DNA of 64,000 nt from Pseudobacteriovorax antillogorgiicola (GCF_900177345.1 NZ_FWZT01000011.1:1-64000); one strand, 5' to 3'; positions 7,221 to 32,737 are shown, counted from the stretch's first letter. Notes: generated from the sequence alone by a model not told the origin. Made by a program: numbers and translations.

Positions 7221-7413
7221 GATATCAAAGCGCCTCCCCGTCGGGTGCTTAACCTTACCTGAGAACGACAATCCCTAGCGGCTAAGGTTCGCTTAATTCT
7301 TTCGGTGATGTATATCCGGTGAACAAAACTTGACCTCATTGCTTGTCATTACGTTCCGATAGCCTTTCTGATTGAAGCTTCATATACATCGAGTCTTCCA
7401 AGGGAGAGTAAAG

Positions 7414-9192
7414 GTGGGTCAAGTGTTTGATAACTCAGAAATGGAATTGCTGATTCAAACGTTTTTGGGAGAGGCAGATGAGTTCATCGAAGAGATGGAG
7501 GCGGGCCTTCTGAGTCTCGAAGATGGCCCTGATGACTCCATGGTGATCGACCAAGTTTTCCGTGCGGCCCACAGCCTCAAAGGCAGCTCCATGGCGGTAG
7601 GACTAAATCAAGTAGGCAAATTCACTCATGAAGTCGAGGCCCTGCTGCTGAAGGTGAAAGAGCATCAGATCCCAGCATCCCGCGACGTCATCAGCGTCCT
7701 GTTGAAGTGCAACGATCACATTAAGACCATGATTGAAACGCTTAAAGAAAATCTCAATGCCGAGTTTGATTCCGACGACCTCTTTGAACAGCTTCGTTTA
7801 ATGCAAGGAATCGACGCCAAAAAAGCAGCGCCTACAAAACCGGCTACTGGTTTTGGTTTCTTTGACGACGATGAAGACGAACCAAAGGAAGAGCCGAAGC
7901 AAGCTCAAGTTGCCCAAGCTCCTCAGCAAAATTCCAAGCCCACTCCAGAACCTCCCAGTGAGCCTGAAAAGCGAGCTAGCCAAGCAGCACCTGCCCAGCG
8001 GAAAAAGCCTCAGGAGCAGATCAAAGTCTCTCAAGAACGTATTGATCGATTGGTAAATAACATTGGCGAGATGGCAATTCTTCTGACCGTTCTCGAAGAG
8101 CAAATGTATCAATTCGCAGGGACCAATTTAGAGAGTACTGTCAAGCAGCTGTACAAGATCAGCAAGGATGTCCAGGATGTCTCGGTATCTCTTCGCATGC
8201 TGCCCGTGAAACCCATATTTCAGAAAATGCGACGAATCGTTCGTGATACTTCAGCGAAACTTGGAAAGCAGGTGAACTTTGTTGTCATTGGTGAAGATGT
8301 TGAAGTTGATAAATCCATTCTCGACTTGGTAGGTGATCCCTTAGTTCATATTATTCGGAATGCTGTGGATCACGGGATCGAGATGCCAGACATTCGTCAA
8401 GGCAATAGCAAAGATCCTGAGGGCACAATCACCCTTCGAGCTTGTCACGAAAGCGGACGACTCGTCTTCTACATCGAAGACGATGGCGGTGGCATTGACG
8501 CCGAGCGTGTCAGAAAAAAGGCCATTGGTCTCGGCATCATCACAGAAAATCAAAAAATGAGCACCCAAGATCTTCACAACCTGATCTTCCACCCTGGCTT
8601 TTCTACAAAAGATCAGGTTACCGACATCTCCGGACGAGGAGTTGGCATGGATGTGGTTAACAACAACATTAAGCAGATGTCAGGAGAAATCGAAATAAGG
8701 TCTGAGCTTGGCAAAGGGAGTCGTTTTAAGATCACGCTTCCCCAAACGTTCTCAATCATTGAAGGCACAGTGGTGCTCTCAGGTGAAGACAAATTCGTCA
8801 TTCCACTGGGAGACATTCAGGAGTCTGTGAAAGTAACCGACCGAGAAATCTCAAAATCGACAGCTCTTGGCGAGGTACTGACCCTTCGCGGTGATCGCCT
8901 TCCTGTATTCCGCTTCGAAGATCTTTTTGAAGTCAAAGAACACCAAAAACCTGAAGAACAGATCGCCCTAATCGCTAAATCCCAAGAGAAAAATTTTGCC
9001 ATCGTCGTCGACGAAATTCTCGGCCGACAACAAATTGTAATAAAAAATCTGGGCAACGAAGTACAAAGCCTTAAAGAGTTTAGTGGCAGTACAATTCTTG
9101 GGGATGGCAAACCTGCCCTGATCGTCGAACTCGCAAACCTAATCAAGCGTAAAGCAAAGCCAGACCTTCACGTAGAAAGGATATCTGCATGA
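7414..9192 (+). CDS. cheA: Chemotaxis histidine kinase CheA (P2-less)
   Basis: The soluble hub kinase of a chemoreceptor array. Domains in order: P1/Hpt with the phosphoryl-accepting His53 (RAAHSLKGSS); an acidic and Pro/Gln-rich linker in place of a folded P2; P3 dimerisation helices (about 210-270); a P4 ATPase (IIRNAVDHGIE, DDGGGI, FSTKDQVTDISGRGVGMD); and a P5 CheW-like domain from about 445. The linker begins with FGFFDDDEDE, which may serve as the docking site normally provided by P2. I start at the GTG at 7414, preceded by GGGAGA; a TTG at 7372 gives 14 extra residues. It overlaps cheW by 4 bp, so the two are translationally coupled. Confidence 0.95.
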   Translation: MGQVFDNSEMELLIQTFLGEADEFIEEMEAGLLSLEDGPDDSMVIDQVFRAAHSLKGSSMAVGLNQVGKFTHEVEALLLKVKEHQIPASRDVISVLLKCNDHIKTMIETLKENLNAEFDSDDLFEQLRLMQGIDAKKAAPTKPATGFGFFDDDEDEPKEEPKQAQVAQAPQQNSKPTPEPPSEPEKRASQAAPAQRKKPQEQIKVSQERIDRLVNNIGEMAILLTVLEEQMYQFAGTNLESTVKQLYKISKDVQDVSVSLRMLPVKPIFQKMRRIVRDTSAKLGKQVNFVVIGEDVEVDKSILDLVGDPLVHIIRNAVDHGIEMPDIRQGNSKDPEGTITLRACHESGRLVFYIEDDGGGIDAERVRKKAIGLGIITENQKMSTQDLHNLIFHPGFSTKDQVTDISGRGVGMDVVNNNIKQMSGEIEIRSELGKGSRFKITLPQTFSIIEGTVVLSGEDKFVIPLGDIQESVKVTDREISKSTALGEVLTLRGDRLPVFRFEDLFEVKEHQKPEEQIALIAKSQEKNFAIVVDEILGRQQIVIKNLGNEVQSLKEFSGSTILGDGKPALIVELANLIKRKAKPDLHVERISA

Positions 9193-9710
9193 GCGAAGAT
9201 ATGACTAGCCAAGTCAATAACGAGATTAAGAACAGCCATCTGAGCGATCACGATCGATTTCTGGAGTTCAACCTCGGTAAAGAACAGTTCGCTGTGCCAC
9301 TGCTTTCAGTTAAAGAAGTGATTGCAGTTCCTGAGACCACAAAAGTTCCATTCACACCAGATTATTTCCTAGGCATCATGAATCTTCGTGGCCAGGTTCT
9401 ATCTGTGATCGACCTTCGAAGGCGGATGAAAATCGAGCCGCTTACCGAGAATTCTGAAACCGCAGTTATCATCATTGACCTTGATTATACTCACCTTGGC
9501 GTTGTCGTTGATTCAATCAACAGGGTGATCGCAGTAGAAGGGGAAGACTTTGCCCCACCACCAGAAATAGAATCAAACACATCTACTGAATTTGTAACGG
9601 GATGTTACAAAAATGACAAAAATCTAGTCCTATTCCTTGACGTCGATAAGATTCTAGATAATAAAGATCGAGAACTCATTCGACAAAAGGAAGTGGACAA
9701 AGCTAGCTAA
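9189..9710 (+). CDS. cheW: Chemotaxis coupling protein CheW
   Basis: A single CheW/SH3-like domain protein of 173 residues that bridges receptors and CheA P5. Typical features are FNLGKEQFAVPLLSVKEVI near residue 30, followed by PDYFLGIMNLRGQVLSVIDLRRRM, where the NLRG turn is diagnostic, and then VGVVVDSINRVI. The start ATG overlaps the cheA stop in an ATGA, and the fused cheR-cheB gene follows after 14 bp, so all three form one operon. An N-terminal extension of about 25 residues precedes the domain. Confidence 0.95.
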   Translation: MSEDMTSQVNNEIKNSHLSDHDRFLEFNLGKEQFAVPLLSVKEVIAVPETTKVPFTPDYFLGIMNLRGQVLSVIDLRRRMKIEPLTENSETAVIIIDLDYTHLGVVVDSINRVIAVEGEDFAPPPEIESNTSTEFVTGCYKNDKNLVLFLDVDKILDNKDRELIRQKEVDKAS

Positions 9711-9724
9711 GGCCGGAGAAGCAC

Positions 9725-11767
9725 TTGGGAGCAGCAGCCCAACAAAACGATCGGCAAATCTTTGAAGCCATTGCCCAAAAGATTTCGAAGATTACGGGGG
9801 TTCAGCTCGGTGAGAAACAGTACTCCTTAGTACTATCTCGCCTGAGCAAGCATCTGCGCAACATGGGCGGTTTAACTCCTGCTCAGTACTGGGAGTACCT
9901 TCAAGGAAATGAAGAAGACGAAGTTCCTGTCCTAATTTCCCTCTTGACAACCCATCACACCTTTTTCTTTCGTGAACAGGTTCACTTTGATTACCTTGAA
10001 GAAGCCTTGCCAAAACTAATTGAGAATGTAATATCTCAAGGCCGCGACACTCTTTACTTCTGGTGTGCAGCCTGCTCAAAAGGCCAAGAGGGTTATACCC
10101 TAGCAATGTTTCTAGATTACCACCTCAAGCAGCTCCGCTGCACTCTTAAATATAAAATCCTATTTAGCGATGTAGATCAAGCCTCAGTGAACTGGGCTGA
10201 AAATGGGGTTTACTCTAACGACGAGCTAGGGAGAGTTCCCATAACCTACCGATCCAATCACTGGATTCGGGGCAAGGGCCAGATTTCCGATTTTTCCAAG
10301 GTGAGGTCGCAACTCAAAGAAAGCTGTAACTTTCGAACTATAAATCTCTTGGAACTTAAAAACGAACGCTTTCCTAATAAGTTTGATGTCGTTTTCTGTC
10401 GAAATGTCTTTATCTACTTTACAGTCAAAGAGATCGAGTCCATATCCAGAAATATTCTCAACAGTATGGAAGAGCATGGACTTTTTATTATAGGAGTTTC
10501 AGAGTCCCTATTGGGAGCTAAGCTCACCGTCGAGCACCTGGGTAAGTCCGTCTACCAGAAATCTGATGAAGAGAAAGTAGTCAACATTCGGACCGACACA
10601 TCAAAGTTGAAGCCAGGCACCAGCAGTATTCCAAGAACACCCCCGAATCTGACTCAAACATCACGCTCTGAGCGACTATCTTCAGTCCCACCGCAACCTC
10701 GGAACCTTGCTGAATCTGTCACTCACGCAGTTTCTCTAAACCGAATGAGTCCTACTGCCGAAGACGACCTCAGAATCATCACCTTGCAATCATCTCTGAA
10801 ACTCGGATCCGACCTTCGCTCCGTAATTAATAATTTCCCTGGGTGCAAATCAGTTGGCTTTGATGTCATAACATCAGCCGACGAAGCCATCGCCAAAATC
10901 AAAGGCAAGCAAGCAAACCTTTTGATCCTAGAAATAAACGCATCGCGATTCCTTCGTAGGATTCTAGCCGAAACGGATGTTGCCACCTTAATTGCAACCA
11001 CAGACCAAGATGAAAGTGAGAAAATCAATCAAGCTTTGGACGCGGGAGCTAGAGACTATATTGTTTTTCGAACCAAGGTCCTCACTGAGCAGGATCGTGA
11101 GGTTTTGGCTTCAAAGCTTCACAATGTAGGTAGAACTGTAGGTCATGACTCCAACTCAAGATCCCGCACCACGAGTAAGCTAGATAACCAGTTTATTGTG
11201 GGTCTCGGTGCCTCGACAGGAGGGACTGAAGCAATCACAAAAGTGCTAACCAAGCTGCCCCATGACATGCCACCCATCGTCATCGTTCAGCACATACCTG
11301 AGTTCTACTCCAAACAGTTTGCTGATCGCTTAAACAAACTCTGTGAAATCGATGTAAAAGAGGCTGTGGATGGAGATGTACTGCGGCCAGGGCTTGCCAT
11401 TGTTGCTCCAGGGAATTTTCAGATGAAGGTGGTCAAGCGTGGTGGACATTACAAGATTAGCGTATTCGAGGGTGAAAAGGTCAATGGCCACAGGCCAAGT
11501 GTCGATGTGCTATTTAATTCTCTTGCAGAGGTTGTTCCCGAAAAGTTACTAGGAGTATTGCTTACTGGCATGGGCTCTGATGGCGCTAAAGGACTGCTAC
11601 AGATGAAAAAAAGTGGCGCTAAAACATTTACTCAAGACGAGGCAACAAGTGTTGTTTATGGAATGCCTAAGGTGGCATTTGAAATCGGTGCCAGCGACAA
11701 AGTTCTGCCCTTGGAACGGATTCCCGATGCTCTTATCAAAGCTTCGAAGAAAGCTGACCAAAGCTAG
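9725..11767 (+). CDS. CheR-CheB fusion: chemoreceptor methyltransferase plus methylesterase
   Basis: One 680-residue chain carries both adaptation enzymes. Residues 1-280 are CheR: HHTFFFREQVHFDYL, the SAM site WCAACSKGQEGYTLA and DVVFCRNVFIYF. After a Ser/Pro linker, residues 345-470 look like a receiver domain, but the phosphorylation Asp position reads LLILEINAS, so phosphorylation is unlikely. Residues 488-675 are the CheB esterase with catalytic Ser497 (GASTGG), His523 (VQHIPEF) and Asp619 (GMGSDGA). The start is TTG with CCGGAGAAG upstream. It is third in the cheA-cheW operon. Receptors and cheY are not adjacent. Esterase control by phosphorylation is probably replaced by another mechanism. 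Confidence 0.93.
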   Translation: MGAAAQQNDRQIFEAIAQKISKITGVQLGEKQYSLVLSRLSKHLRNMGGLTPAQYWEYLQGNEEDEVPVLISLLTTHHTFFFREQVHFDYLEEALPKLIENVISQGRDTLYFWCAACSKGQEGYTLAMFLDYHLKQLRCTLKYKILFSDVDQASVNWAENGVYSNDELGRVPITYRSNHWIRGKGQISDFSKVRSQLKESCNFRTINLLELKNERFPNKFDVVFCRNVFIYFTVKEIESISRNILNSMEEHGLFIIGVSESLLGAKLTVEHLGKSVYQKSDEEKVVNIRTDTSKLKPGTSSIPRTPPNLTQTSRSERLSSVPPQPRNLAESVTHAVSLNRMSPTAEDDLRIITLQSSLKLGSDLRSVINNFPGCKSVGFDVITSADEAIAKIKGKQANLLILEINASRFLRRILAETDVATLIATTDQDESEKINQALDAGARDYIVFRTKVLTEQDREVLASKLHNVGRTVGHDSNSRSRTTSKLDNQFIVGLGASTGGTEAITKVLTKLPHDMPPIVIVQHIPEFYSKQFADRLNKLCEIDVKEAVDGDVLRPGLAIVAPGNFQMKVVKRGGHYKISVFEGEKVNGHRPSVDVLFNSLAEVVPEKLLGVLLTGMGSDGAKGLLQMKKSGAKTFTQDEATSVVYGMPKVAFEIGASDKVLPLERIPDALIKASKKADQS

Positions 11768-21806: not shown

Positions 21807-22256
21807 ATGCAGCAGGATGAAATTTCACAATCCATCATATCGTATCTTCAGCAGCACAATCGGCCAGACCTCGCCTTGATGCCTGACCAAATCAGCCAAG
21901 GCGTGCTCGATATCCTGATTGAGGATACTCGTCATATGGCCGAGGCAGCCTTGGAAAGTCGTCCACGTGCGGGGCGCTATATCACTCTCGCTGTCTTACT
22001 GCTTCATTCTAAGCTAAAGGGCCAGTCTTCCATCCAGATGACTGAAAGTGAATTACAGAAAAGCATCTCCCGCTATACTCAAGCCATCTACTTGGAAAAT
22101 TTGAGCCGCCAAGGAATCATCAAGAACTTGAGACCAGCTGTTAGCCAAGACAACGTATTCGACCCTAATATCAGACCCGAATACGATTTGACTGAGCTTG
22201 GAAAGCAGGTCGCTAAAGAAAGCCTTCAGCCACTTCCTGATTACCAATCTACCTAA
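21807..22256 (+). CDS. Hypothetical helical protein, possibly winged-helix
   Basis: A 149-residue soluble protein of unknown family. It is mainly helical, and the segment QKSISRYTQAIYLENLSRQGIIKNLRPAV followed by PEYDLTELGKQVAKE looks like the recognition helix and wing of a winged-helix domain, ending in a helix. I chose the ATG at 21807 because of AGGAG six bases upstream; the frame is open to 21741. It is convergent with glrR, sharing the last 4 bp, and follows the receiver-kinase gene on the same strand after about 140 bp. Confidence 0.6.
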   Translation: MQQDEISQSIISYLQQHNRPDLALMPDQISQGVLDILIEDTRHMAEAALESRPRAGRYITLAVLLLHSKLKGQSSIQMTESELQKSISRYTQAIYLENLSRQGIIKNLRPAVSQDNVFDPNIRPEYDLTELGKQVAKESLQPLPDYQST

Positions 22257-23590
22257 CCCTGAGCCTTAAACTGAGCCGGCTGCAAGTTGTGGCGAGCCAT
22301 CAGCTTGTAAAAGTCGGTTCGATTGCGCTTCGCTGCTCGCGCTGCTTGGCTTACGTTGCCTTTCGCCTGGCGCAGCACTTGAATCAAGTACTGCCTCTCG
22401 AACTCACTTTTGGCATCTGCCAAAGACTGTAGTTCCTCTGTATCTGGGGTTAGAGCCTCGCGGACCGAACTCTCAGAAATCACCGATGTCGTGCTCAAGA
22501 CAACCAGTCTCTCGACAACATTGTATAGCTGACGCACGTTTCCCGGCCATTGAGCGTTGCAAATCAACTCTAAGGCCTTAGGAGCAAATGACTTCACTCG
22601 CGGCTTGTGTCTCGAAGCCACTTTTTGCAAAAATGATTTGGCTAGGAGAGAGATATCTTCACGCCTTTGGTTCAGTGTTGGGATGGAAAGACCAATCACG
22701 TTCAACTTATAAAAGAGGTCTTCCCTGAACTCACCAGCTTGAACTTTTTCTTCTAAGTCCTGATGGGTTGCCGACATAATTCGAATATCAGCAGCAGCCG
22801 CACTCAGGCTCCCCCCCGCTCGCATCTGACGTTCTTCTAGAACACGAAGCAGCTTAGCTTGCAAGCCGAGTGGCATTTCGGAAACCTCATCTAGGAACAA
22901 GGTGCCGCCCTTGGCTGCTTGAAACAAACTTTTCTGATCGTTGCCAGCGTTTTTAGTGGTTCCAAACAATTCAGCTTCTAAGAGATCCCCTGGTAGCGCC
23001 GCACAGTTAATGGCGATAAACGGCCCAAACTTGCGACGACTAGCATTATGGATGGCACGAGCAAGAAGCTCTTTGCCGGTGCCGCTTTCCCCTTGCAGAA
23101 GAATATTGCTATCTGACTGAGCCACGAGCTTGGCTTTCTTCAGAAGATCAAGCATAACCTGACTTTGGGTTATAATATCTGCACACCAAGCGTTCTTTTG
23201 TTGATCGGGTTGCTTGCCACTCTGAGTCAACGCTTTTTGAATGACTTTAAATAGCTTATCCTTATCAATCGGCTTGGTTATGAACGAGAAAACTCCCTTT
23301 TGGGTTGCTTCAACAGCTTCTGGAATCGTGCCATGGGCCGTAATAATAATGACCGGGAGGAACGGGCGACGACTGGAAACCTCTTCAAAAAGTGTCATTC
23401 CATCGATCTTATCCATCCTTAAGTCGCTTATGAGAACATCCGGCTCAAAGATATCTAGCCTCTGCAAACACTGCACTCCATCTGTAGCAGTCTCGACGAC
23501 AAACCCCTCAGAGACCAGCCTCATTTTGAGTAGTTTGAGTAGCCCTTCATCGTCATCGACCAGTAGAATTTTTCCATGCTGAGTCATCAT
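22253..23590 (-). CDS. glrR: GlrR/QseF-type response regulator lacking the GAFTGA loop
   Basis: A receiver-AAA+-Fis regulator. The receiver has LVDDDEG and Asp56 (VLISDLRMDKIDG). The AAA+ domain has Walker A GESGTGKE and Walker B GGTLFLDEVSE, and the C-terminal helix-turn-helix NVSQAARAAKRNRTDFYKLMARH closely matches E. coli GlrR. The sigma-54 contact loop is missing: after EAELFG the chain reads TTKNAGNDQKSLFQ, about four residues shorter than normal and without GAFTGA. It probably binds its operators and ATP but cannot open sigma-54 promoters in the usual way, and may act with sigma-70. AGAGGAGG precedes the ATG. It is the last gene of the glrK-qseG-glrR operon. Confidence 0.88.
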   Translation of the reverse strand: MMTQHGKILLVDDDEGLLKLLKMRLVSEGFVVETATDGVQCLQRLDIFEPDVLISDLRMDKIDGMTLFEEVSSRRPFLPVIIITAHGTIPEAVEATQKGVFSFITKPIDKDKLFKVIQKALTQSGKQPDQQKNAWCADIITQSQVMLDLLKKAKLVAQSDSNILLQGESGTGKELLARAIHNASRRKFGPFIAINCAALPGDLLEAELFGTTKNAGNDQKSLFQAAKGGTLFLDEVSEMPLGLQAKLLRVLEERQMRAGGSLSAAAADIRIMSATHQDLEEKVQAGEFREDLFYKLNVIGLSIPTLNQRREDISLLAKSFLQKVASRHKPRVKSFAPKALELICNAQWPGNVRQLYNVVERLVVLSTTSVISESSVREALTPDTEELQSLADAKSEFERQYLIQVLRQAKGNVSQAARAAKRNRTDFYKLMARHNLQPAQFKAQG

Positions 23591-23599
23591 TCACCTCCT

Positions 23600-24094
23600 C
23601 TAACGGGCATTTCGTTGGGAACGTTTTTGGATTTTCTTTTCGATAGTTGAAAGAGCTTGCAACTTGTCTTGCAGATCTTTGGACTCCTTGCGATATTTTT
23701 CTGACGATTCATATAACCGCCGCTTAGCAGTTAGGTGGAGCTGGTACCACTGAGCTGCCAAGCGACTGTCCTCGTCAAGGTCTTGCCTTTTTGCGAGACG
23801 ATTGAAGATCTGAGTCGCCTTTTGATAGTCAGATGAGCTTTGTGGCCGTAGGCCATAAGCTATACCCAGCTCGAAACTTGAAACCCAATCGTCCCGTTTA
23901 CGATTTTTAATGCGTTTGGCTCGCTCTCTAGCAAAGGTCTTATCAGACATCTCCATAATATCCTTGCCATAGTCAACCCAGTAGTTCAAATCCCTATAGC
24001 CGACAAAGACAATGGTTTCCTCAAACTTCTGCGAGAGGTCTGTGGTACAACTAGCTGATAGAGCTAAACAGACGATAACTCCGATCTTTCTCAT
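23600..24094 (-). CDS. qseG: QseG-like outer-membrane lipoprotein
   Basis: A short lipoprotein with leader ending LSASC (Cys16) and a helical, strongly charged mature part containing a TPR-like stretch (SFELGIAYGLRPQSSSDYQKATQIFNRLAKR) and a C-terminal coiled coil. By position, between a GlrK/QseE kinase and a GlrR/QseF regulator, and by type it corresponds to QseG, which in enterobacteria is an outer-membrane lipoprotein that contacts the kinase's periplasmic domain and activates it. Its start overlaps the kinase stop by 4 bp and the regulator begins 9 bp after its end, so all three are co-translated. Sequence identity to QseG cannot be judged by eye. Confidence 0.72.
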   Translation of the reverse strand: MRKIGVIVCLALSASCTTDLSQKFEETIVFVGYRDLNYWVDYGKDIMEMSDKTFARERAKRIKNRKRDDWVSSFELGIAYGLRPQSSSDYQKATQIFNRLAKRQDLDEDSRLAAQWYQLHLTAKRRLYESSEKYRKESKDLQDKLQALSTIEKKIQKRSQRNAR

Positions 24095-25536
24095 GAAAGC
24101 TCCTTATTTGCGATCACATGGGGAATATCCACTCTCATGTGAGCACCAATCAATGAATCTATGATCTGCAACTGGCCGCCGTGCGACTCAACGCACTCCT
24201 TTGCTACAGATAATCCTAGGCCTGTGCCCTTTAGTGGGCCCTGTTTGCGCGCGGTCCCTTGATAGAAAGGTAAAAACACCTTGTGTCGCTCCTCTTGGGG
24301 GATTCCCGGCCCTGAGTCGAGCACTTGGAACACAAGATTTTCTTGTCCTTCAGGAGACCAGTTAATTTCTATATAGCCACCCTTAGGTGTATAGTGCACA
24401 GCATTGGAAACTAAGTTATCAAGGGCTGCTCGCAGCACGGAGCGGTCAGCTCTCACCTGTAAAGCCTGACCTTCCACTTTAAGAGAAATCTTCTTACGCT
24501 TGGCCGTCAACTTATGAGCATTGACCGTGTCTTGTACTATCTCCTCCATATCAAACACGTCGGTATGCAGGTTAGGATCGCGGCGGAGTAGGTTGAAATC
24601 GAGGAGGTTATTAATCAAACTTTGAAAGCTGGTGGCAGCACTCGATAGAATTCCAACAACTTCTTGCTGAGCCTCGTTCAGTTTACCTGGAATCTGATCT
24701 TCAAGAAGCTCAATACCTTCCTTAATCGTTGATAGGGGGGTTTTCAACTCGTGCGATATATGTCTGAGGAAGCGTTTCTTTTCTTCTTCTGATTCTGAAA
24801 GCTGACGCCCTAGCCAAGATAATCGCTGGGCTACGCGCTGCAAATCCACGGGACCCTGGACTGTGAACTCCCCGTCGTACTCGCCTTGGCCAAGCTTACG
24901 AATAGCCGTATCTATTTGTCTCAAAGGCTTTAAAATCAGTGAGGTAAAAAGAAATACAAGGGCCACCGTTAAGGGGAGCAGCGTTACCACGTACAGAACA
25001 AGCTCCTGGCTCACTTCTTCCACAGATCCCTGAGCATCCTTGACGCGTTCGTTTAAAAATAGAGACCCTTCCTGATTGAGAGTCTGAACTAGGAAAAACA
25101 GTCGCTCAAACCGCGCCAACTCTTTATTGAAGGCAGGGTCCTTGTCATCGACTTGATTGATGCCCTGCTCCAGTTTTTCTAGCTCCTGAAGCAAAATTCT
25201 TGCAATGGGAACCAATTTTTCGCCGCGACTAATCAGAGTGATATCAGCCAAGGCATTTTGCGCAGCTTTGTATCGCTCATTGAACATGTCACGAATGGAA
25301 GGGTCACCCAGCAACTGATATTGGCGGGCAGATCGTTCCATATCTTCCAAATTGCCTTGGATCGTTCGCGTTGACTCGGTGAGTAGAACGATGCTGCTCA
25401 TATCGGTTTCATGCTGCGTCGCCATGCGATCCAATGACTGAAAGCCGCGAATCGTGCCTAAAAGCAACGGCATGAGCACGACGACAAAGCCGATCAGGGT
25501 CAGGTGCAAAATGGTTGGTGGTTGAAACTTCTTCAT
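24091..25536 (-). CDS. glrK: GlrK/QseE-type sensor histidine kinase
   Basis: An inner-membrane kinase of 481 residues. Helix 1 (about 9-30), a helical periplasmic domain (31-178), helix 2 (about 179-202) and a HAMP segment precede HisKA with His262 in FLRHISHELKTPLSTIKEG and an intact HATPase (LVSNAVHYTP, DSGPGIP, GTGLGLSVAKE). The patterns LKTPL-(x)3-(K/R)EG-(x)-ELL-(x)-DQ and FYQGTARKQGPLKGTGLGLS closely resemble E. coli GlrK. It is the first gene of the operon with qseG and glrR. In enterobacteria this system controls the glmY small RNA and envelope genes; the targets here are unknown. Confidence 0.9.
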   Translation of the reverse strand: MKKFQPPTILHLTLIGFVVVLMPLLLGTIRGFQSLDRMATQHETDMSSIVLLTESTRTIQGNLEDMERSARQYQLLGDPSIRDMFNERYKAAQNALADITLISRGEKLVPIARILLQELEKLEQGINQVDDKDPAFNKELARFERLFFLVQTLNQEGSLFLNERVKDAQGSVEEVSQELVLYVVTLLPLTVALVFLFTSLILKPLRQIDTAIRKLGQGEYDGEFTVQGPVDLQRVAQRLSWLGRQLSESEEEKKRFLRHISHELKTPLSTIKEGIELLEDQIPGKLNEAQQEVVGILSSAATSFQSLINNLLDFNLLRRDPNLHTDVFDMEEIVQDTVNAHKLTAKRKKISLKVEGQALQVRADRSVLRAALDNLVSNAVHYTPKGGYIEINWSPEGQENLVFQVLDSGPGIPQEERHKVFLPFYQGTARKQGPLKGTGLGLSVAKECVESHGGQLQIIDSLIGAHMRVDIPHVIANKELS

Positions 25537-26013: not shown

Positions 26014-28779
26014 TTATTCGACGGCGCCGCTGAACGAGAATGTATTATGACACTGCTCACAACTCTGGTACCGGCTGCTAGAGTGATTCGGACTGGTGAC
26101 CAAGTCTGCCTGCGACTGATGACAGCCGGCACAATCTGTGGGTAGAGCCACGTAGTTGCCTTGGTTGTGACAACTTCGACAATCCGTCAAGCGATGCACT
26201 CCGCGGAGTGGAAACTGAGTCATATCGTGGATAAATGTCGTTGACTCCCAAACTGTCTGAGTATGACAGTCTTGACAGTCATTAAGGAAACCACCATGAG
26301 GATCATCTTCGTGGTGACAAACGCGACAGTCTTCGCTACTGCCTCGAAGAACCTTCTCCTCGATATGACACTGATCGCAACCCAACACTAGATGCACTCC
26401 TTCGAGTGTGAAGTCTTTATGGAAACCATCGGCCTTCTTCCAGCCTGCTTCTGTATGACACTTGGTACAGCGAGTCCCGTTAGTTCCTTTGTGAGGGTCC
26501 CGGTGACAAACTTGGCAATTGCGAGTTTTCAGATCGGGGAACATATACCGACCCTTTCTCGCCTTGCGCCCCTGGGTGAACCTCTTCGCCGTTCGGGTAT
26601 GACACTCCTTACACTCGACCTTCTTGTGCTTGTATCGAAGTGCAAAGTTAGTTTCGCTGTGATTGAAACGCTTCAAGTCGCCAAAAGTCGAAGTCTTATG
26701 GCATTCTCCACAAGGCTTTCTATAGAATTTGGCTCTAAACATATCCCTGTGCTCGTTTTTATGGCAATTATCACAGAATCCACGGTTCTCTCCGGGGAAT
26801 TGAAACTTATGAGCAACCTTTGGCGGTTTTGTAGGCAGTTTTTTGTTGGTCTTGACATGACATTCGAAGCAATTGTTTTTGACCTTCGCATGGCGACCAG
26901 TTAGCTTAAATCGGGTCTTATCGTGATTGAATGGTTTCCTCTTCGTAAATGAATTGGTCGTGTGACAATCAGTACAAGCTGAGCGCCTGATAAATTCTGG
27001 GCTGAACTGTTTGCGATGAACGTTATTATGACAATTCTCACAGTAGCCATTCTTAGCGAACTTGAATTTGAATTTGTGAGCTGTTTTAGGTGGCTTCGTC
27101 GGTAACTTGGCTCGGGTGGGAACGTGACACTTGCTACAGTTCTTCTCGAACTTTTTATGCTGCCCCGTGATTTTGAAATCAGTTATGTTGTGATTAAACG
27201 GCTTTCGTTTGCCGAAACTCATCGTTGTGTGGCACTCTCCACAGCCCATCCTGACAAACTTTGGTGTAAACTGCTTCTTGTGGACCGAGTCGTGGCAGTT
27301 CACGCAAAATCCTTTGTCAGCATTAGGAAACTTATATCGCTCCTTGCCATTTACCAAGTGACAGGACTTACATGGCTGATTGGTGTGTTTACCGGTCAAA
27401 GGGAAACGAGTATTTTGATGAAACCTACGATCCCCGCCAGGCATACCCTTAGCTCCTGCCATGATGTTCCAACCCCGAGGGGTGTGACAATCAGCACACT
27501 TAACCCCTTTAAATCGGCGATGGAAGGCACTGGAGTGAGGAGACTTATGGCAGGTCTCACAGGTTTTTGTTGTCAAGCTTTTAAAGTGATAGATCCGCCT
27601 CTCATTGGTTTTTCCTTTTGTTTGACCCTTGAGGGTTACATGACACTGGAAACAATCATTCCTCAAATGCTTTCCTTCAAGGGGGAAGATCGTTTGAGAG
27701 TTATGATTGAATTGAATATTTTGCTTCCACCCAAATTCATTGTGACATTGAGCACAGTTTGATAGTGAAGGCATCCGCTTAGGTTTGGTATTGCCGTAGC
27801 CATGATAGTCAGCATGACAAGAACCGCAGGACTTGTTTAGCCCCACCCATCGGAAATCCGCCAGCTTCTTGCCCTGATTTCCCGGCTTATGGCAATCGAT
27901 ACATTGATTTTGGGCATGCTTGCCGCGTAGGGGCCAACCAGTGACTTCGTGTTTAAAACCAGTGATATCCCATTTTTCTTGGCTGTGACAGGTATCACAA
28001 TTCCCATTTTGGAACTTTGGACTGAGGTTTCGACCGTGATGATCCTCGTGGCAGGTGAGACATTTTCTAGTCTTCAAACCGGGAAAATCATAGATTTCAG
28101 ACCCCTTACCTTTAGGAGCGTGACAATCGGAACACTTATTTCTAGCATGGGCTCCAATAAGCGCATAACCTGTTTCCCGAGCGTGATCGAAGAACTTCGT
28201 ATCTTTCCACTCTGTCGTATTATGGCATTTGCTACATTCGACCTTCGCGAACTTACCCGTATAGCGATGGATATCGTCATCAGCATGACATTCGCGACAG
28301 GATGGAGACTTTCCAAACCATCTTGTATCACTTCGATTGATAGGCTTATTGAGCCTCTTTTCTGTATGACAGTCGGTACACTCGACTTTCGTGTGGGCGC
28401 CGTCAAGAATAAAACCTGTTCTCTTATGATCGAAATTTTTCTCGTCAAAACGGACGGCATTGAAGTCGCGACCCTTATGGTCCTTATGACAATCAACGCA
28501 GGCTTTACCACCCATCAGGCCATGAAAGCTCTTCTTCTGCCTAAGTTGAACCCCAATACCTTTATGACAATCAACACAGCCTTTATTTGGAATTCCGCCA
28601 CCTGGATCGTGACAGGTGAGGCAATCCGTGTGCTCCAATTTTTCGTGCCCGATCATCAAAGGGCCTGGCGCAAGAAGCTTGTTCATCAAGCCTTCAAATT
28701 TCTTTGAATCGCTCTGGGCCAATGATGAACTCGCCATCATTGTGAGTAAAGCTGCGATGATAAACTTAAAGTTCCTCAA
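26014..28779 (-). CDS. 33-heme periplasmic/outer-membrane cytochrome c
   Basis: A secreted protein of 921 residues with signal peptide (cleavage after SSLA, about 22) and 33 CxxCH heme-binding motifs, the first near residue 53 and the last near 907. The motifs sit in repeated modules of about 60-65 residues with the pattern F-x-H-(x)n-F-x-(L/I)-x-G-x-H-(x)4-CxxCH, plus extra histidines as distal ligands, so most hemes are probably bis-His and arranged as a wire. The overall charge is basic. The start is TTG with GAGGG upstream, overlapping the barrel gene's end by 14 bp. It is the last gene of the operon that also encodes barrel, diheme lipoprotein, Fe-S flavoprotein and cytochrome b. A role in moving electrons across or beyond the outer membrane is inferred. 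Confidence 0.93.
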   Translation of the reverse strand: MRNFKFIIAALLTMMASSSLAQSDSKKFEGLMNKLLAPGPLMIGHEKLEHTDCLTCHDPGGGIPNKGCVDCHKGIGVQLRQKKSFHGLMGGKACVDCHKDHKGRDFNAVRFDEKNFDHKRTGFILDGAHTKVECTDCHTEKRLNKPINRSDTRWFGKSPSCRECHADDDIHRYTGKFAKVECSKCHNTTEWKDTKFFDHARETGYALIGAHARNKCSDCHAPKGKGSEIYDFPGLKTRKCLTCHEDHHGRNLSPKFQNGNCDTCHSQEKWDITGFKHEVTGWPLRGKHAQNQCIDCHKPGNQGKKLADFRWVGLNKSCGSCHADYHGYGNTKPKRMPSLSNCAQCHNEFGWKQNIQFNHNSQTIFPLEGKHLRNDCFQCHVTLKGQTKGKTNERRIYHFKSLTTKTCETCHKSPHSSAFHRRFKGVKCADCHTPRGWNIMAGAKGMPGGDRRFHQNTRFPLTGKHTNQPCKSCHLVNGKERYKFPNADKGFCVNCHDSVHKKQFTPKFVRMGCGECHTTMSFGKRKPFNHNITDFKITGQHKKFEKNCSKCHVPTRAKLPTKPPKTAHKFKFKFAKNGYCENCHNNVHRKQFSPEFIRRSACTDCHTTNSFTKRKPFNHDKTRFKLTGRHAKVKNNCFECHVKTNKKLPTKPPKVAHKFQFPGENRGFCDNCHKNEHRDMFRAKFYRKPCGECHKTSTFGDLKRFNHSETNFALRYKHKKVECKECHTRTAKRFTQGRKARKGRYMFPDLKTRNCQVCHRDPHKGTNGTRCTKCHTEAGWKKADGFHKDFTLEGVHLVLGCDQCHIEEKVLRGSSEDCRVCHHEDDPHGGFLNDCQDCHTQTVWESTTFIHDMTQFPLRGVHRLTDCRSCHNQGNYVALPTDCAGCHQSQADLVTSPNHSSSRYQSCEQCHNTFSFSGAVE

Positions 28780-30124
28780 AGCTCATAGCCCTCTTGCGCG
28801 TTGGAGAAGTTGATTCCTTACCAAATTGATACCCTAAAGAGAACATCAACGACGTAACGGTACGATCCTCTGCTGTGCTTAGAATATAGGATGTACTTCC
28901 TCTTAGTTTATCGGATGTGTAGAAAGCAAAATCCAGATGAATTGTCTGCGGATTCAGCGTATCACCAGTATCAAAATTCTCCGTTTCCATGATGTAAGCG
29001 GCTGACAGACTATAAAAATTCTGGTAATAGCGAGTTGATAGCTTAATATAGTTGTCATCCGATTCAAAGTTATCACGTTGCCCATAGTAAGCGCCCAGGC
29101 TAAGCCTTCGTCTCAACATGCCACGATAAGTAGCACCGACTTCTAGTTCTGTGCGGCTTAGTCCATCAGCAGCTCTCTGGGCGTACTCAAGCCCGTAGGT
29201 GAAGTTTAAATCTCGGTTGAATCGCTGTGTCACGGTGGATTTTAGAGCGTTCAGAGTACTTGGCTCCAGATCGTCACGAATATCCTTTTTCAGCCGATAA
29301 TCCTCCGCTGTTATGCGGGTAAAAGATGATCGAACCCTAAACTTCGTTAAGTAGTATCCATGGGTGACGTAAGCTCTGCGTAAGCTAGCAGATGGCATAA
29401 CATCAAAATTCACGTAGCTAGAAACCCGATGCTTGAACCCAAGGTTGAAAATACCCTGATGGTAATAGTAAACCTTATTGACAAAATCATCGAGCTCGAA
29501 TGAGGGTGCCTGAGCCAAGGTATTGATCATAAAGGTGGTATCCATGCGACCGGCATTTTCTCGCTTATAAACTGAATAAATACCACCCTGGTTGCCATCA
29601 AACCCTCGCTCGTCTGGACTGACACTAGCAGGAGTCACCACATCCTCGGGCGCAATTCCAATAAACCCCCCGACCCGGTGAGATCGGTTCAGACGATAGC
29701 CGTATTCTCCACCATCATTTGCAATGATCCCAGCCTCAGGAATCGAAAACCGGCCTACGGTATAGTAGCCTCGATTGACTTCCCAAGGTTTTTTATAAGC
29801 AGCCTGGCGGATGATAAATTCATTGGAAGATTCAAGGCTTAGAATCTCGGAGTTAGCCTTCCCAAAGAAGTCATACTTATCCCGAAGGTCTAAAACGAAG
29901 CCATCGCGGCGCGAAAACAAGTCCTCACCTTCTAGGAAAAGCCGAGTGCTGATGATAGAAATATCATTTGACTCCTCTCCCTGGATAGGTTCGGAGTAAC
30001 GGATTTGACTGTTGATGGCTCCAAGACGCACCTGCCCCGTGTAATCAGCTGCGATTCCCTTTGTTGCCAAAGATAAGCAGGCTACACCGATAGCGGCGAC
30101 AATCTTTTCGACTTCAGCGTTCAT
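28766..30124 (-). CDS. Outer-membrane beta-barrel protein (putative cytochrome-conduit porin)
   Basis: A 452-residue protein with a signal peptide (about 1-25, ending IAA) and long runs of alternating polar and hydrophobic residues with aromatic girdles (FMINTLAQ, YYYHQGIFNLGFKHRVSSYVNF, YSLSAAYIMETE, TSLMFSLGYQF), typical of a large transmembrane barrel. The final strand ends LMFSLGYQFG, then a short polar tail follows. It lies directly upstream of, and overlaps, the 33-heme cytochrome gene. In MtrAB-type systems the barrel sheathes a multiheme cytochrome; sequence resemblance to MtrB cannot be judged by eye, so the role comes from context. Confidence 0.78.
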   Translation of the reverse strand: MNAEVEKIVAAIGVACLSLATKGIAADYTGQVRLGAINSQIRYSEPIQGEESNDISIISTRLFLEGEDLFSRRDGFVLDLRDKYDFFGKANSEILSLESSNEFIIRQAAYKKPWEVNRGYYTVGRFSIPEAGIIANDGGEYGYRLNRSHRVGGFIGIAPEDVVTPASVSPDERGFDGNQGGIYSVYKRENAGRMDTTFMINTLAQAPSFELDDFVNKVYYYHQGIFNLGFKHRVSSYVNFDVMPSASLRRAYVTHGYYLTKFRVRSSFTRITAEDYRLKKDIRDDLEPSTLNALKSTVTQRFNRDLNFTYGLEYAQRAADGLSRTELEVGATYRGMLRRRLSLGAYYGQRDNFESDDNYIKLSTRYYQNFYSLSAAYIMETENFDTGDTLNPQTIHLDFAFYTSDKLRGSTSYILSTAEDRTVTSLMFSLGYQFGKESTSPTRKRAMSFEEL

Positions 30125-30200
30125 AGGTCCGATGCTTATTAATATACATTCTAGTGTATCAGCTCCACTAAAACCGTACTAGTTAGGGACTTCTACAATG

Positions 30201-30443
30201 CTATCTCACGAGACTGATCACAGACCAATCTGGAAATGAGTGACACGAAACACAATCGCCAGTGCGGGTGTGAGAGTCCCTATCTGGACGGGTTTCCTCG
30301 TGACAAACATTGCATTCAGTAAAAGTAAGGTGAGCCCGGCGATCGCTAGGGCTTTTAAAATCCTCACTTGCTTCTGGAGCCTCGACTCCACAGCTACTAC
30401 TAATTAAGATCATACTCCCTATGATGAATCGAAGCTTATTCAT
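30201..30443 (-). CDS. Small diheme c-type lipoprotein
   Basis: An 80-residue lipoprotein: leader ending ISSSC (Cys18), then about 60 residues containing CNVCH and CVSCH, i.e. two covalently bound c-hemes, and several other histidines (THTRT region, AHLTF) that may serve as distal ligands. AGGGA precedes the ATG. It is placed between the Fe-S flavoprotein and the barrel genes of the redox operon and could relay electrons at the membrane surface. It is too small to assign to a named family. Confidence 0.75.
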   Translation of the reverse strand: MNKLRFIIGSMILISSSCGVEAPEASEDFKSPSDRRAHLTFTECNVCHEETRPDRDSHTRTGDCVSCHSFPDWSVISLVR

Positions 30444-30453
30444 GACTTGGTCC

Positions 30454-31794
30454 CTACCCGGTTTTCACAGCTTCGCCATACTTGGTGTCTATCACTACCC
30501 CCAAACTTTCCAAAAATTTGAAAGGTAATTCAGCTCCAGCAAAAATAAAGAGAAAATCGTTTTGAAGGCGAAGCCTTTGCCCTTGACGATCTACTATTAA
30601 ATAATCTTCATAAATTTCGGATACGACTGTATCAAAGCACATCACCACCTTCTTTTTCTTCGCCATGTCAAAGATGATGTTCTGATTGTCTTCGTTACAG
30701 CGATCGAGTTGCGGACCTCTAACTAGAAGATACACTCTATTCTGAAGCCGACTCTTGGCTAGGTACTGAGCGGCCTCAACCGCCGCGTTACCCCCACCAA
30801 CAACTGCGATATCACACTTCTGATACTGATCTGGATCGAGAAGATTGTACGTTACCTTCGTACTTTCCTCGCCCTTTAAGCCGAGTTTTCGGGGACTTCC
30901 TCGAACTCCCATTGCCATAATCACCTTGCTAGCCGTGATGATTCCATTGTTGGTTTCCACATGGAATATGCCGTTTTTCTTCTTCAAATTTATAAACTTT
31001 GCATTCTCTTTGATCTGCAAATTGTACTTCTTACGAAGTCCTCCCCAGACAGCCAAGATTTCTTCTTTTGAGACTTTGTTTCTAGGAAACTTTACCATCC
31101 CCGCAAGGGGAAATTCGAGAGGGTGAGACATAACAACTTTCTGCTTTGGAAAGTTATAGATCGTCCCCCCAAATTTATTCTGCTCAAGGCAAATATACTT
31201 TTTCTTTTTTTCTGCGCAGGTCAGAGACGCTGCAAGTCCCGCTGGCCCTGCTCCAACAACGAGGACATCATATTCAGCTTTACCTGGAGAAACTTTTGAG
31301 CAGGCATGCTCTGCAGCAAGTTTGCCTTGCTTAACGGCATTTCTGATTAGCCCCATGCCTCCAAGCTCGCCCGCGATATAAAGACCACCGACATTGGTCT
31401 CATAATAAGGGCTGATCCTAGGGAGTTGCATCCCCCGCGTCTTGGTTCCGAAGACGAGTTTGATGGCATCGAGAGGGCAGGCCACCTCACAGGCTCCATG
31501 CCCCACACATTTAGTAGGTTCTATAAGCTTAGCCTTGTGATGGATGAGTTTTAGGATTTCCCCTTCAGGGCAGGCCGTGACACAGGCTCCACAACCACTG
31601 CATAGGTTGGGGTCGATCTCTGGATGGAGAGTCATAGGCTCATCCATCTTCTTCTCAACCGCATCTTTCCACTTCTTTTTTGCTACCTTTTCGTGCTTTT
31701 CCCGGCTTTTGACACCACGAAGGGCTAGGTAGACAAAGAATCCAACTCCAAATACCCAAAGATATTCTGTCAAAATATAGTACAGCTTAAGCAT
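30454..31794 (-). CDS. Membrane-anchored 2x[Fe-S] FAD/NAD(P)-binding oxidoreductase
   Basis: From the N terminus: one membrane helix (about 8-26), a ferredoxin-like module, then a thioredoxin-reductase-like two-dinucleotide-binding flavoprotein. Cluster 1 is the classical CSGCGACVTACP; cluster 2 reads CVGHGACEVACP, with His where the second Cys is expected. FAD binds at VVGAGPAGLAAS and NAD(P) at VVGGGNAAVEAA. The reductase CxxC disulphide is absent. I prefer the ATG at 31794 with GGGGA upstream; a GTG at 31839 would add 15 residues. It follows the cytochrome b gene by about 80 bp and precedes the diheme lipoprotein by 10 bp. It probably passes electrons between NAD(P)H or ferredoxin and the membrane cytochrome. 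Confidence 0.85.
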   Translation of the reverse strand: MLKLYYILTEYLWVFGVGFFVYLALRGVKSREKHEKVAKKKWKDAVEKKMDEPMTLHPEIDPNLCSGCGACVTACPEGEILKLIHHKAKLIEPTKCVGHGACEVACPLDAIKLVFGTKTRGMQLPRISPYYETNVGGLYIAGELGGMGLIRNAVKQGKLAAEHACSKVSPGKAEYDVLVVGAGPAGLAASLTCAEKKKKYICLEQNKFGGTIYNFPKQKVVMSHPLEFPLAGMVKFPRNKVSKEEILAVWGGLRKKYNLQIKENAKFINLKKKNGIFHVETNNGIITASKVIMAMGVRGSPRKLGLKGEESTKVTYNLLDPDQYQKCDIAVVGGGNAAVEAAQYLAKSRLQNRVYLLVRGPQLDRCNEDNQNIIFDMAKKKKVVMCFDTVVSEIYEDYLIVDRQGQRLRLQNDFLFIFAGAELPFKFLESLGVVIDTKYGEAVKTG

Positions 31795-31876
31795 ACCGGT
31801 CCCCATACAAAGCCCGAGTATTATCGACTTTCCCGTCACTAAACTTTAGTTTTCGCTCTGTGTTTCGGCGCAACAA

Positions 31877-32737
31877 CTAATTTACTTTAAATATCAGAGA
31901 GGAAACGATGTGAATGATAGCGACAACATACATAAATATCGCAAAGGGAGTATGAAAGGTTCGCCAATATCCGAAGAGAAGCTGATAGTAGTGCATAAAG
32001 ATTAGACGCCTTTTGATGAATGCCCAGTCCCGTAATTTTTTTCGTATCGGCCGACTTCCCCCCCACGGTGTTGCTGGAAGCCTGAACATGAGGTTAATGT
32101 CCCCCGAAAACGAGCGAAAAATAAATTCAACCAAGCCCATCTGTCTTAGAGATTCGCCCATAACACCGCCCGTAGCCTGGTATAAAGCAATGGCCTTCGC
32201 TCGCTCCATATCCTGCTCGCCGATGCCACGACTAGAGATTCGCACGTAGTTATGAAACCCTTGTTCGAAAGCGTCCAGTGTAGAGCGAAGACCGGTCTTT
32301 CGCTGCAGCAGTTGGATGTAAAAATACCGTCCAATAATACCACTCACAAAGCTCACGACCATGCTCCAGAAACTGATGGCAACAAGCCCACCAACCTTAA
32401 AATTGCAGTGGAAGACAATCAGAGTGGGGCCCATTAAGCCAAAGAAGATATGCCAATCAAGCCAAGCTTGCAAGTTACCAAGCTTCTGTAAGGAGTGGAC
32501 CCGTTTGCGAATAATATAAAGATTTGTTAGAGCCATCACCCCAAAACCGAGCCAACCAAGAAAGTAGCTCACTGGCTTACCAGGTCGAGGATCGAAACGT
32601 CGACAAGAATCAAATAGGAAGCATTGTATATCGAGCATCAGACCAGTGAATCGAAAATAGCCATTGGCAGCTAGGTATTCGATTGATAACCATGAGGTTA
32701 TCGCGATCCACACCAACGTGAGGCCCTTTAGAGTCAT
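31877..32737 (-). CDS. Transmembrane cytochrome b-like protein (two b-hemes likely)
   Basis: A 286-residue integral membrane protein with about five hydrophobic helices. Two helices each carry a pair of histidines 14 residues apart: His96/His110 (DWHIFFG, VFHCNF) and His262/His276 (TFHTPF, AIIHIV). That is the classic spacing for two stacked bis-His b-hemes, as in quinol-oxidising cytochromes b and ferric-reductase-like domains. A soluble loop of about 100 residues lies between the two helices. It is the first gene of the five-gene redox operon, so it probably exchanges electrons with the quinone pool and the downstream cytochromes. The exact family is not recognised. Confidence 0.75.
   Translation of the reverse strand: MTLKGLTLVWIAITSWLSIEYLAANGYFRFTGLMLDIQCFLFDSCRRFDPRPGKPVSYFLGWLGFGVMALTNLYIIRKRVHSLQKLGNLQAWLDWHIFFGLMGPTLIVFHCNFKVGGLVAISFWSMVVSFVSGIIGRYFYIQLLQRKTGLRSTLDAFEQGFHNYVRISSRGIGEQDMERAKAIALYQATGGVMGESLRQMGLVEFIFRSFSGDINLMFRLPATPWGGSRPIRKKLRDWAFIKRRLIFMHYYQLLFGYWRTFHTPFAIFMYVVAIIHIVSSLIFKVN

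Follow-up and report, generated by a model that had tools for sequence, protein, structure and literature searches.

The question raised by this locus is whether five neighbouring genes form a single route for electrons through the whole cell envelope. The genes are co-directional on the minus strand (26014-32737) of the window, the 64,000-nucleotide stretch of DNA that was analysed, and the initial annotation read them, in the order cytochrome b, Fe-S flavoprotein, diheme lipoprotein, barrel and multiheme protein, as a candidate trans-envelope conduit. ORF calling confirmed the genes and that order, and the conduit reading is supported, being favoured by every available test. In our view the five genes probably specify a one-chain form of the PCC3 porin-cytochrome conduit, linked to NAD(P)H and working outward.

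The first gene (31877..32737, minus strand) encodes a predicted inner-membrane diheme cytochrome b of 286 aa. Its two histidine pairs, already noted as lying 14 residues apart, are His 96/110 and His 262/276; they belong to two WX3HX13H motifs (WLDWH...H110 and WRTFH...H276), and an SGxxG motif is found at 132. Two WX3HX13H motifs plus SGXXG in a protein of about 300 aa is the published signature of the PCC3 and PCC4 membrane proteins (He et al. 2017, PMC5566968). The window cytochrome b has both the size and the motifs of a PCC3 inner-membrane protein (IMP), of which it is by this measure a homologue, and the same motif set occurs in homologues at 54 loci. A simple hydropathy scan gave four transmembrane helices for the window IMP and four to five for most relatives; the PCC3 description has five. 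A PDB profile search with the IMP returned no match, and the Pfam model Ferric_reduct gave no significant one (best E 0.1, in one of 11 IMP family members).

At the other end of the operon lies the gene for a c-type cytochrome of 921 aa (26014..28779, minus strand), with a TTG start, a Sec signal peptide and c7-like triheme modules. The count of 33 CxxCH motifs is exact, and the protein is predicted to be secreted, as had been proposed. All 66 cysteines are used in these motifs and none is spare, there are 40 histidines outside them, and residue shuffles of the same composition contained on average 0.4 and at most 3 CxxCH motifs. PF14522 scored above its cut-off (133.7 bits, 10 stretches), so repeated triheme c7 domains are present. 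The chain has 27 aa per heme; MtrA homologues have about 33 (PMC5566968).

Two parts of this chain place it among known cytochromes. A profile of the N-terminal domain, residues 28-140 (28360..28698, minus strand), matches the IMP-side cytochromes of PCC3-type clusters in Proteobacteria, Bacteroidota/Ignavibacteria and Nitrospirota at their N-terminus with 77-119 bits, whereas second cytochromes reach 37 bits at most. The domain is thus common to the PCC3 periplasmic cytochromes of other phyla, and its presence here marks the 33-heme protein as their enlarged relative. Complete cytochromes with this domain mostly carry 17/20/23, 18/21/24 or 30/36 hemes, that is, steps of three, and a few carry 19, 37, 38 or 57. 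The C-terminal domain, residues 785-918 (26026..26427, minus strand), scored at least 171 bits at the C-terminus only in one-chain loci of the Bdellovibrionota type; outside these its profile matches interior repeats.

We also considered the chain as a fusion of the two cytochromes of PCC3, and rejected this as unsupported, since the C-terminal domain is not C-terminal in any second cytochrome. From the positions of this domain, the blastp alignments of second cytochromes with the C-terminal half of the chain are better explained by cross-matching of repeats.

The AlphaFold model of the chain (13 sequences) was uninformative, with a pLDDT of 38 as expected without hemes, and no claim on length or docking is based on it. 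MtrA holds 10 hemes over about 100 A (quoted in PMC5566968). Scaled from MtrA, and so not a measurement, 33 hemes in line could extend in the order of 300 A, enough for the periplasm and the outer membrane.

The gene next to the chain (28766..30124, minus strand) encodes a predicted outer-membrane beta-barrel of 452 aa. Its AlphaFold model (20 family members, pLDDT 81, pTM 0.74) has 22 strands in residues 27-435, followed by a short conserved tail. Standard barrel geometry gives a backbone radius of about 20 A, in principle wide enough for a heme chain. MtrB has 26 strands; the predicted barrel is narrower than this and wider than a 16-strand porin. The barrel matched Porin_4 weakly, and searches of Pfam and PDB gave no sequence match of the MtrB type; the PDB profile search returned nothing, solved MtrB included. 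Foldseek against PDB gave no informative relative, its matches being limited to generic porins and pilus ushers (TM no higher than about 0.5).

If the barrel is an ordinary pore that shares the operon by chance, the chain may be a periplasmic electron store. The Geobacter c7 nanowires GSU1996 (12 hemes) and GSU2210 (27 hemes) are periplasmic and are regarded as capacitors (PMC10138318), and the present chain is related to the periplasmic, not the extracellular, cytochrome of PCC3. We consider a mere store very unlikely, because the chain is tied to its barrel in several ways. The overlap of the two genes is real (14 bp, at the TTG start of the cytochrome gene), so that they overlap translationally, and the overlapping TTG is kept in the relative G001. 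Of 56 related genomes, 12 have the barrel (12 of 58 by profile), and far from being found apart from the cytochrome, it adjoins a multiheme gene in 12 of 12; genomes with two copies show this for both (in genome G006 one copy is split across two contigs). This strict adjacency extends to second copies with 36 hemes and no IMP nearby, and the C-terminal module of the chain goes with this barrel family.

A comparable barrel of 415-426 aa also directly follows the cytochrome in two Nitrospirota loci (L086 and L100) and in L068 (titled Deltaproteobacteria), which likewise have one chain, of 38, 37 and 57 hemes respectively. An hhalign comparison of these barrels with the window barrel family covered 391 columns at a probability of 96.7; this is weak evidence that they share descent, because barrels align easily.

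It has further to be asked whether the 33-heme protein leaves the cell through the barrel, as the subunit of an extracellular filament or as a surface cytochrome. It is heme-rich, basic (pI 9.35) and repetitive, and extracellular cytochrome filaments are known in other bacteria. We give this reading hardly any credence, since the protein is homologous to the periplasmic chain beside the IMP and not to the extracellular one, and the cluster holds no secretion genes.

The operon as a whole is conserved. The five-gene order recurs within the family and also in a second family of the same taxonomic order, and since relatives at 52-67% identity keep both this order and all 33 motifs, the locus is not a chance arrangement. 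Across related genera and families the same gene order goes with chains of 24, 27, 33 or 36 hemes, and in the family of the window all complete copies have 33. A genus of the other family has one locus with 24 or 27 hemes in the same order with cytochrome b, and a second with 36 hemes that no cytochrome b adjoins, from which it follows that the cytochrome b may be shared between loci. In the alignment, whole three-heme blocks are inserted or deleted in the interior of the chain, and both ends are constant.

The small gene at 30201..30443 (minus strand) encodes a c-type lipoprotein of 80 aa with two CxxCH motifs and a lipoprotein-type signal ending in CG, in agreement with the initial annotation. 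The heme number is two in the window and in G001 and four in most relatives. Some loci lack the protein, so the plan does not depend on it, and it may be an accessory at the outer membrane.

How electrons would enter the conduit is suggested by the remaining gene (30454..31839, minus strand), which encodes a flavoprotein of 461 aa. It has a hydrophobic N-terminal helix, a Fer4 dicluster and Pyr_redox_3/2 matches, which bears out its description as a membrane-anchored protein with two Fe-S clusters; FAD and NAD(P) Rossmann domains follow the two Fe-S motifs. Positive charges past the helix would place these domains in the cytoplasm by the positive-inside rule. Several relatives begin further in, and the start codon is uncertain. 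In the Fe-S part, residues 72-128 (31456..31626, minus strand), the first motif is Cys 80/83/86/90 and the second is Cys111-His114-Cys117-Cys121, that is, CxxHxxCxxxCP in place of four cysteines. This histidine is present in 96 of 96 flavoprotein sequences, as is Arg380 in the nucleotide-binding half; neither position was part of the scan patterns used. With histidine at the second cysteine position, the cluster may be a [4Fe-4S] with a His ligand or a [3Fe-4S]. The nearest named model is YpdA, far under its cut-off (149.6 vs 339.9 bits), and the YpdA/thioredoxin-reductase-like domain points to NAD(P)H as the likely partner.

The flavoprotein is a conserved partner of PCC3 that is unlisted in the PCC3 literature consulted here; the definition given there comprises four genes and does not include it (PMC5566968, PMC12442390). 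We scanned a collection of 84,980 species genomes with the flavoprotein alignment and analysed the best 80 loci, which come from Bdellovibrionota-type MAGs, Bacteroidota/Ignavibacteria, Gamma-, Beta- and Alphaproteobacteria, Nitrospirota and others. Among the 48 loci flanked by 3 kb or more on each side, a cytochrome b lies within 6 kb in 40 and a multiheme cytochrome within 6 kb in 43, and the gene orders match clusters published as PCC3 (PMC5566968). In the flavoprotein tree (midpoint root), the family of the window falls in a Bdellovibrionota-type clade, apart from the groups of Proteobacteria and Bacteroidota/Ignavibacteria. The partnership was tested in the family of L117 (titled Nitrosomonadales bacterium) with 60 genomes, counting flavoproteins above 380 bits. 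The PCC3 membrane protein is present in 26 of the 60; all 26 have the flavoprotein, compared with 2 of the 34 others (Fisher p = 5e-15, relatedness of the genomes uncorrected), and in 22 of the 26 it lies within 3 kb of the IMP.

He et al. remarked on a resemblance of the PCC3 membrane protein to the ferric reductase/NADPH oxidase domain, yet drew the protein as quinone-linked, with quinol as the proposed partner of the IMP (PMC5566968). The constancy of the flavoprotein makes an NADPH-oxidase-like input a serious alternative to the quinone link, which may nevertheless hold here. The likeness to NADPH oxidases and ferric reductases (FRD) is in architecture only: two b hemes on two HX13H pairs and a feed from flavin and nucleotide on the cytoplasmic side, with the difference that here a separate YpdA/TrxR-like Fe-S protein serves as the flavin module.

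From what is directly established (the genes, their domain identities, the PCC3 homology, the conserved order, the module-wise heme numbers and the flavoprotein association) we infer the topology, docking sites, NAD(P)H partner, outward direction, acceptor and insertion of the chain in the barrel as follows. On the cytoplasmic side, NAD(P)H would reduce the FAD of the membrane-anchored flavoprotein, whose two Fe-S clusters would feed electrons to the membrane cytochrome, first at its inner and then at its outer b heme. The 33-heme protein would dock at this cytochrome by its N-terminal module, the c7-like triheme modules would form a continuous heme wire over the periplasm, and the conserved C-terminal module would dock in or at the 22-strand barrel and deliver electrons to an outside acceptor, which may be Fe(III)/Mn(IV) minerals, humics or another cell. 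The number of modules (24 to 36 hemes) would set the length of the wire. A stronger version, which we put forward tentatively, is that a single chain runs from the IMP to the exterior with its C-terminus in the barrel and its length tuned by modules, and that the whole PCC3 class is driven by NAD(P)H via the flavoprotein with the His cluster and not by quinol, in a split NADPH-oxidase-like entry.

The same parts might work in reverse and take up electrons from Fe(II), minerals, a cathode or partner cells, passing them via the IMP and flavoprotein to the quinone pool or NAD(P)+. Porin-cytochrome wires can be reversible (PMC10734462), it has been suggested that PCC3 may serve iron oxidizers as a conduit for Fe(II) oxidation (PMC5566968), and the flavoprotein is tied to PCC3 in the L117 family. 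Uptake is nevertheless unlikely in our judgement. Transfer from outside to NAD(P)+ would be uphill in redox terms and against the membrane potential, and Sideroxydans lithotrophicus ES-1 lowers expression of both its PCC3 clusters on Fe(II) (PMC8788666). Electrons that pass from NAD(P)H to the exterior, by contrast, run downhill and with the membrane potential; these points together favour export, which we prefer over uptake with moderate confidence.

The rest of the genome fits a conduit with one large cytochrome. Cytochrome c assembly proteins are present elsewhere, and a CxxCH-pair scan of the genome (96.9% complete) found no second large multiheme cytochrome; the other matches were a protein that is ActA-like by motif, lipoproteins with four and six hemes, and several proteins with two motifs.

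Beside the operon and outside the conduit are three genes of a possible regulator (22253..25536, minus strand), found at the same position in G001 only. They encode a GlrK/QseE-like kinase (24091-25536), a lipoprotein (23600-24094) and a GlrR/QseF-like sigma-54 regulator (22253-23590), all on the minus strand. A scan for sigma-54 -24/-12 sites gave 52 matches where 47 were expected, with none just upstream of the operon, and thus lends no support to control of the operon by the neighbouring GlrR-like protein. Matches in sigma-70 and terminator scans of the DNA were at chance level.

We know of no experiment on any PCC3 system, and a 2025 paper calls PCC3 functionally unverified (PMC12442390). 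PCC3 is widely spread, and the quinone pool has so far been the guess for its entry on the inner side. The presence of the flavoprotein in all IMP genomes of one PCC3-rich family and in clusters of several phyla provides a testable alternative, export or uptake linked to NAD(P)H. The locus also brings candidate extracellular electron transfer to Oligoflexia-like Bdellovibrionota (the group is assigned by relatives), for which our literature search found no such report. Among the architectures compared, the one-chain form is the simplest of PCC3, with one large cytochrome, a barrel, a membrane protein and the flavoprotein, and it is therefore a good candidate for reconstitution.

Compared with known systems, the chain resembles the Geobacter monomeric c7 nanowires GSU1996 and GSU2210 in being one polypeptide of triheme c7-like domains, but it goes with a barrel and an IMP, and it scores below the cut-off of the NCBIfam nanowire_3heme model TIGR04257 (17.1 vs 40 bits). 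With MtrAB, MtoAB and PioAB the operon shares a porin and a multiheme cytochrome across the outer membrane. It differs in that the cytochrome is not of the decaheme MtrA/DmsE type (TIGR03508, 77.7 bits, cut-off 192.2) and the barrel has 22 predicted strands instead of the 26 of MtrB, and also in its input, via an IMP cytochrome b and not CymA.

The closest likeness is to PCC3 as described by He et al. (PMC5566968) and in a survey of Gallionellaceae (PMC10734462): an IMP with two WX3HX13H motifs and SGxxG, the same N-terminal cytochrome domain, a porin beside the cytochrome gene, a very low ratio of residues to hemes, and heme numbers that change by threes. Published PCC3 has two large cytochromes, with a median of 21 hemes in the periplasmic and 34 in the extracellular one, and porins predicted to have up to 42 transmembrane regions (PMC5566968). 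Here the one-chain loci have a single large cytochrome of 24-36 hemes, the adjacent barrel is compact, and the flavoprotein and small heme lipoprotein lie inside the operon. In the Gallionellaceae cluster L080 the order is a 743-aa porin whose N-terminal half matches TPR weakly, cytochromes of 17 and 24 hemes, a membrane protein of 298 aa and, set apart, the flavoprotein. In Gammaproteobacteria the neighbour of about 660 aa resembles a porin in length; the one examined, in L111, is an ankyrin-repeat protein. The operon lies outside strict published PCC3 because an extracellular multiheme cytochrome was looked for in the cluster and not found; as its membrane protein and cytochrome are homologous to those of PCC3, it is a one-chain variant of that class. 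The initial annotation had called the input and heme number unlike the standard. This is correct with respect to MtrAB and CymA, but they are not unprecedented: the operon is not a new kind of system but a relative of published PCC3, in which both the large heme number and the cytochrome b input have a precedent.

In the flavoprotein encoded by the operon, the second Cys of the second ferredoxin-type motif is replaced by an invariant His in all sequences (96/96; window 31456-31626 and loci L021-L118). The second Cys of the first ferredoxin-type motif is also replaced, by Ser or Thr, in most Bacteroidota-type members.

Outside the operon, the same genome encodes a six-heme lipoprotein (L147, 5865-6572), whose CHEEDR...CHSYPSW motifs resemble those of the small heme lipoprotein of the operon. 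Possibly, the six-heme lipoprotein is a trans-acting accessory. A four-heme lipoprotein (L146, 4829-5224) adjoins a protein with two CxxCH motifs (L146, 3552-4757), and CxxCH pairs resembling those of the latter are found at three more sites in the genome (C4:227347, C4:273673 and C7:14267).

Directly downstream of the 33-heme cytochrome gene are genes for a GlrK/QseE-like kinase, a lipoprotein and a GlrR/QseF-like sigma-54 regulator (window 22253-25536). The position of this set is kept in the related genome G001, and the set is absent from that place in the other relatives. Signalling genes are very abundant in the window (1177-21665 and 35180-55474); these regions hold numerous histidine kinases, including 7TMR-DISM types, and a CheA/CheR-CheB-like cluster is located at 7372-11767.

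Two Bdellovibrionales MAGs (L041 and L040) encode the barrel and a one-chain 30-heme cytochrome, with an additional 37- or 20-heme cytochrome adjoining the flavoprotein. These layouts may be intermediates between the one-chain and two-chain arrangements. In PCC3-like clusters, the second cytochrome carries 70 CxxCH motifs in a Bacteroidales locus (L113, 11893-17109) and 61 in an Ignavibacteriales locus (L056, 11870-16435).
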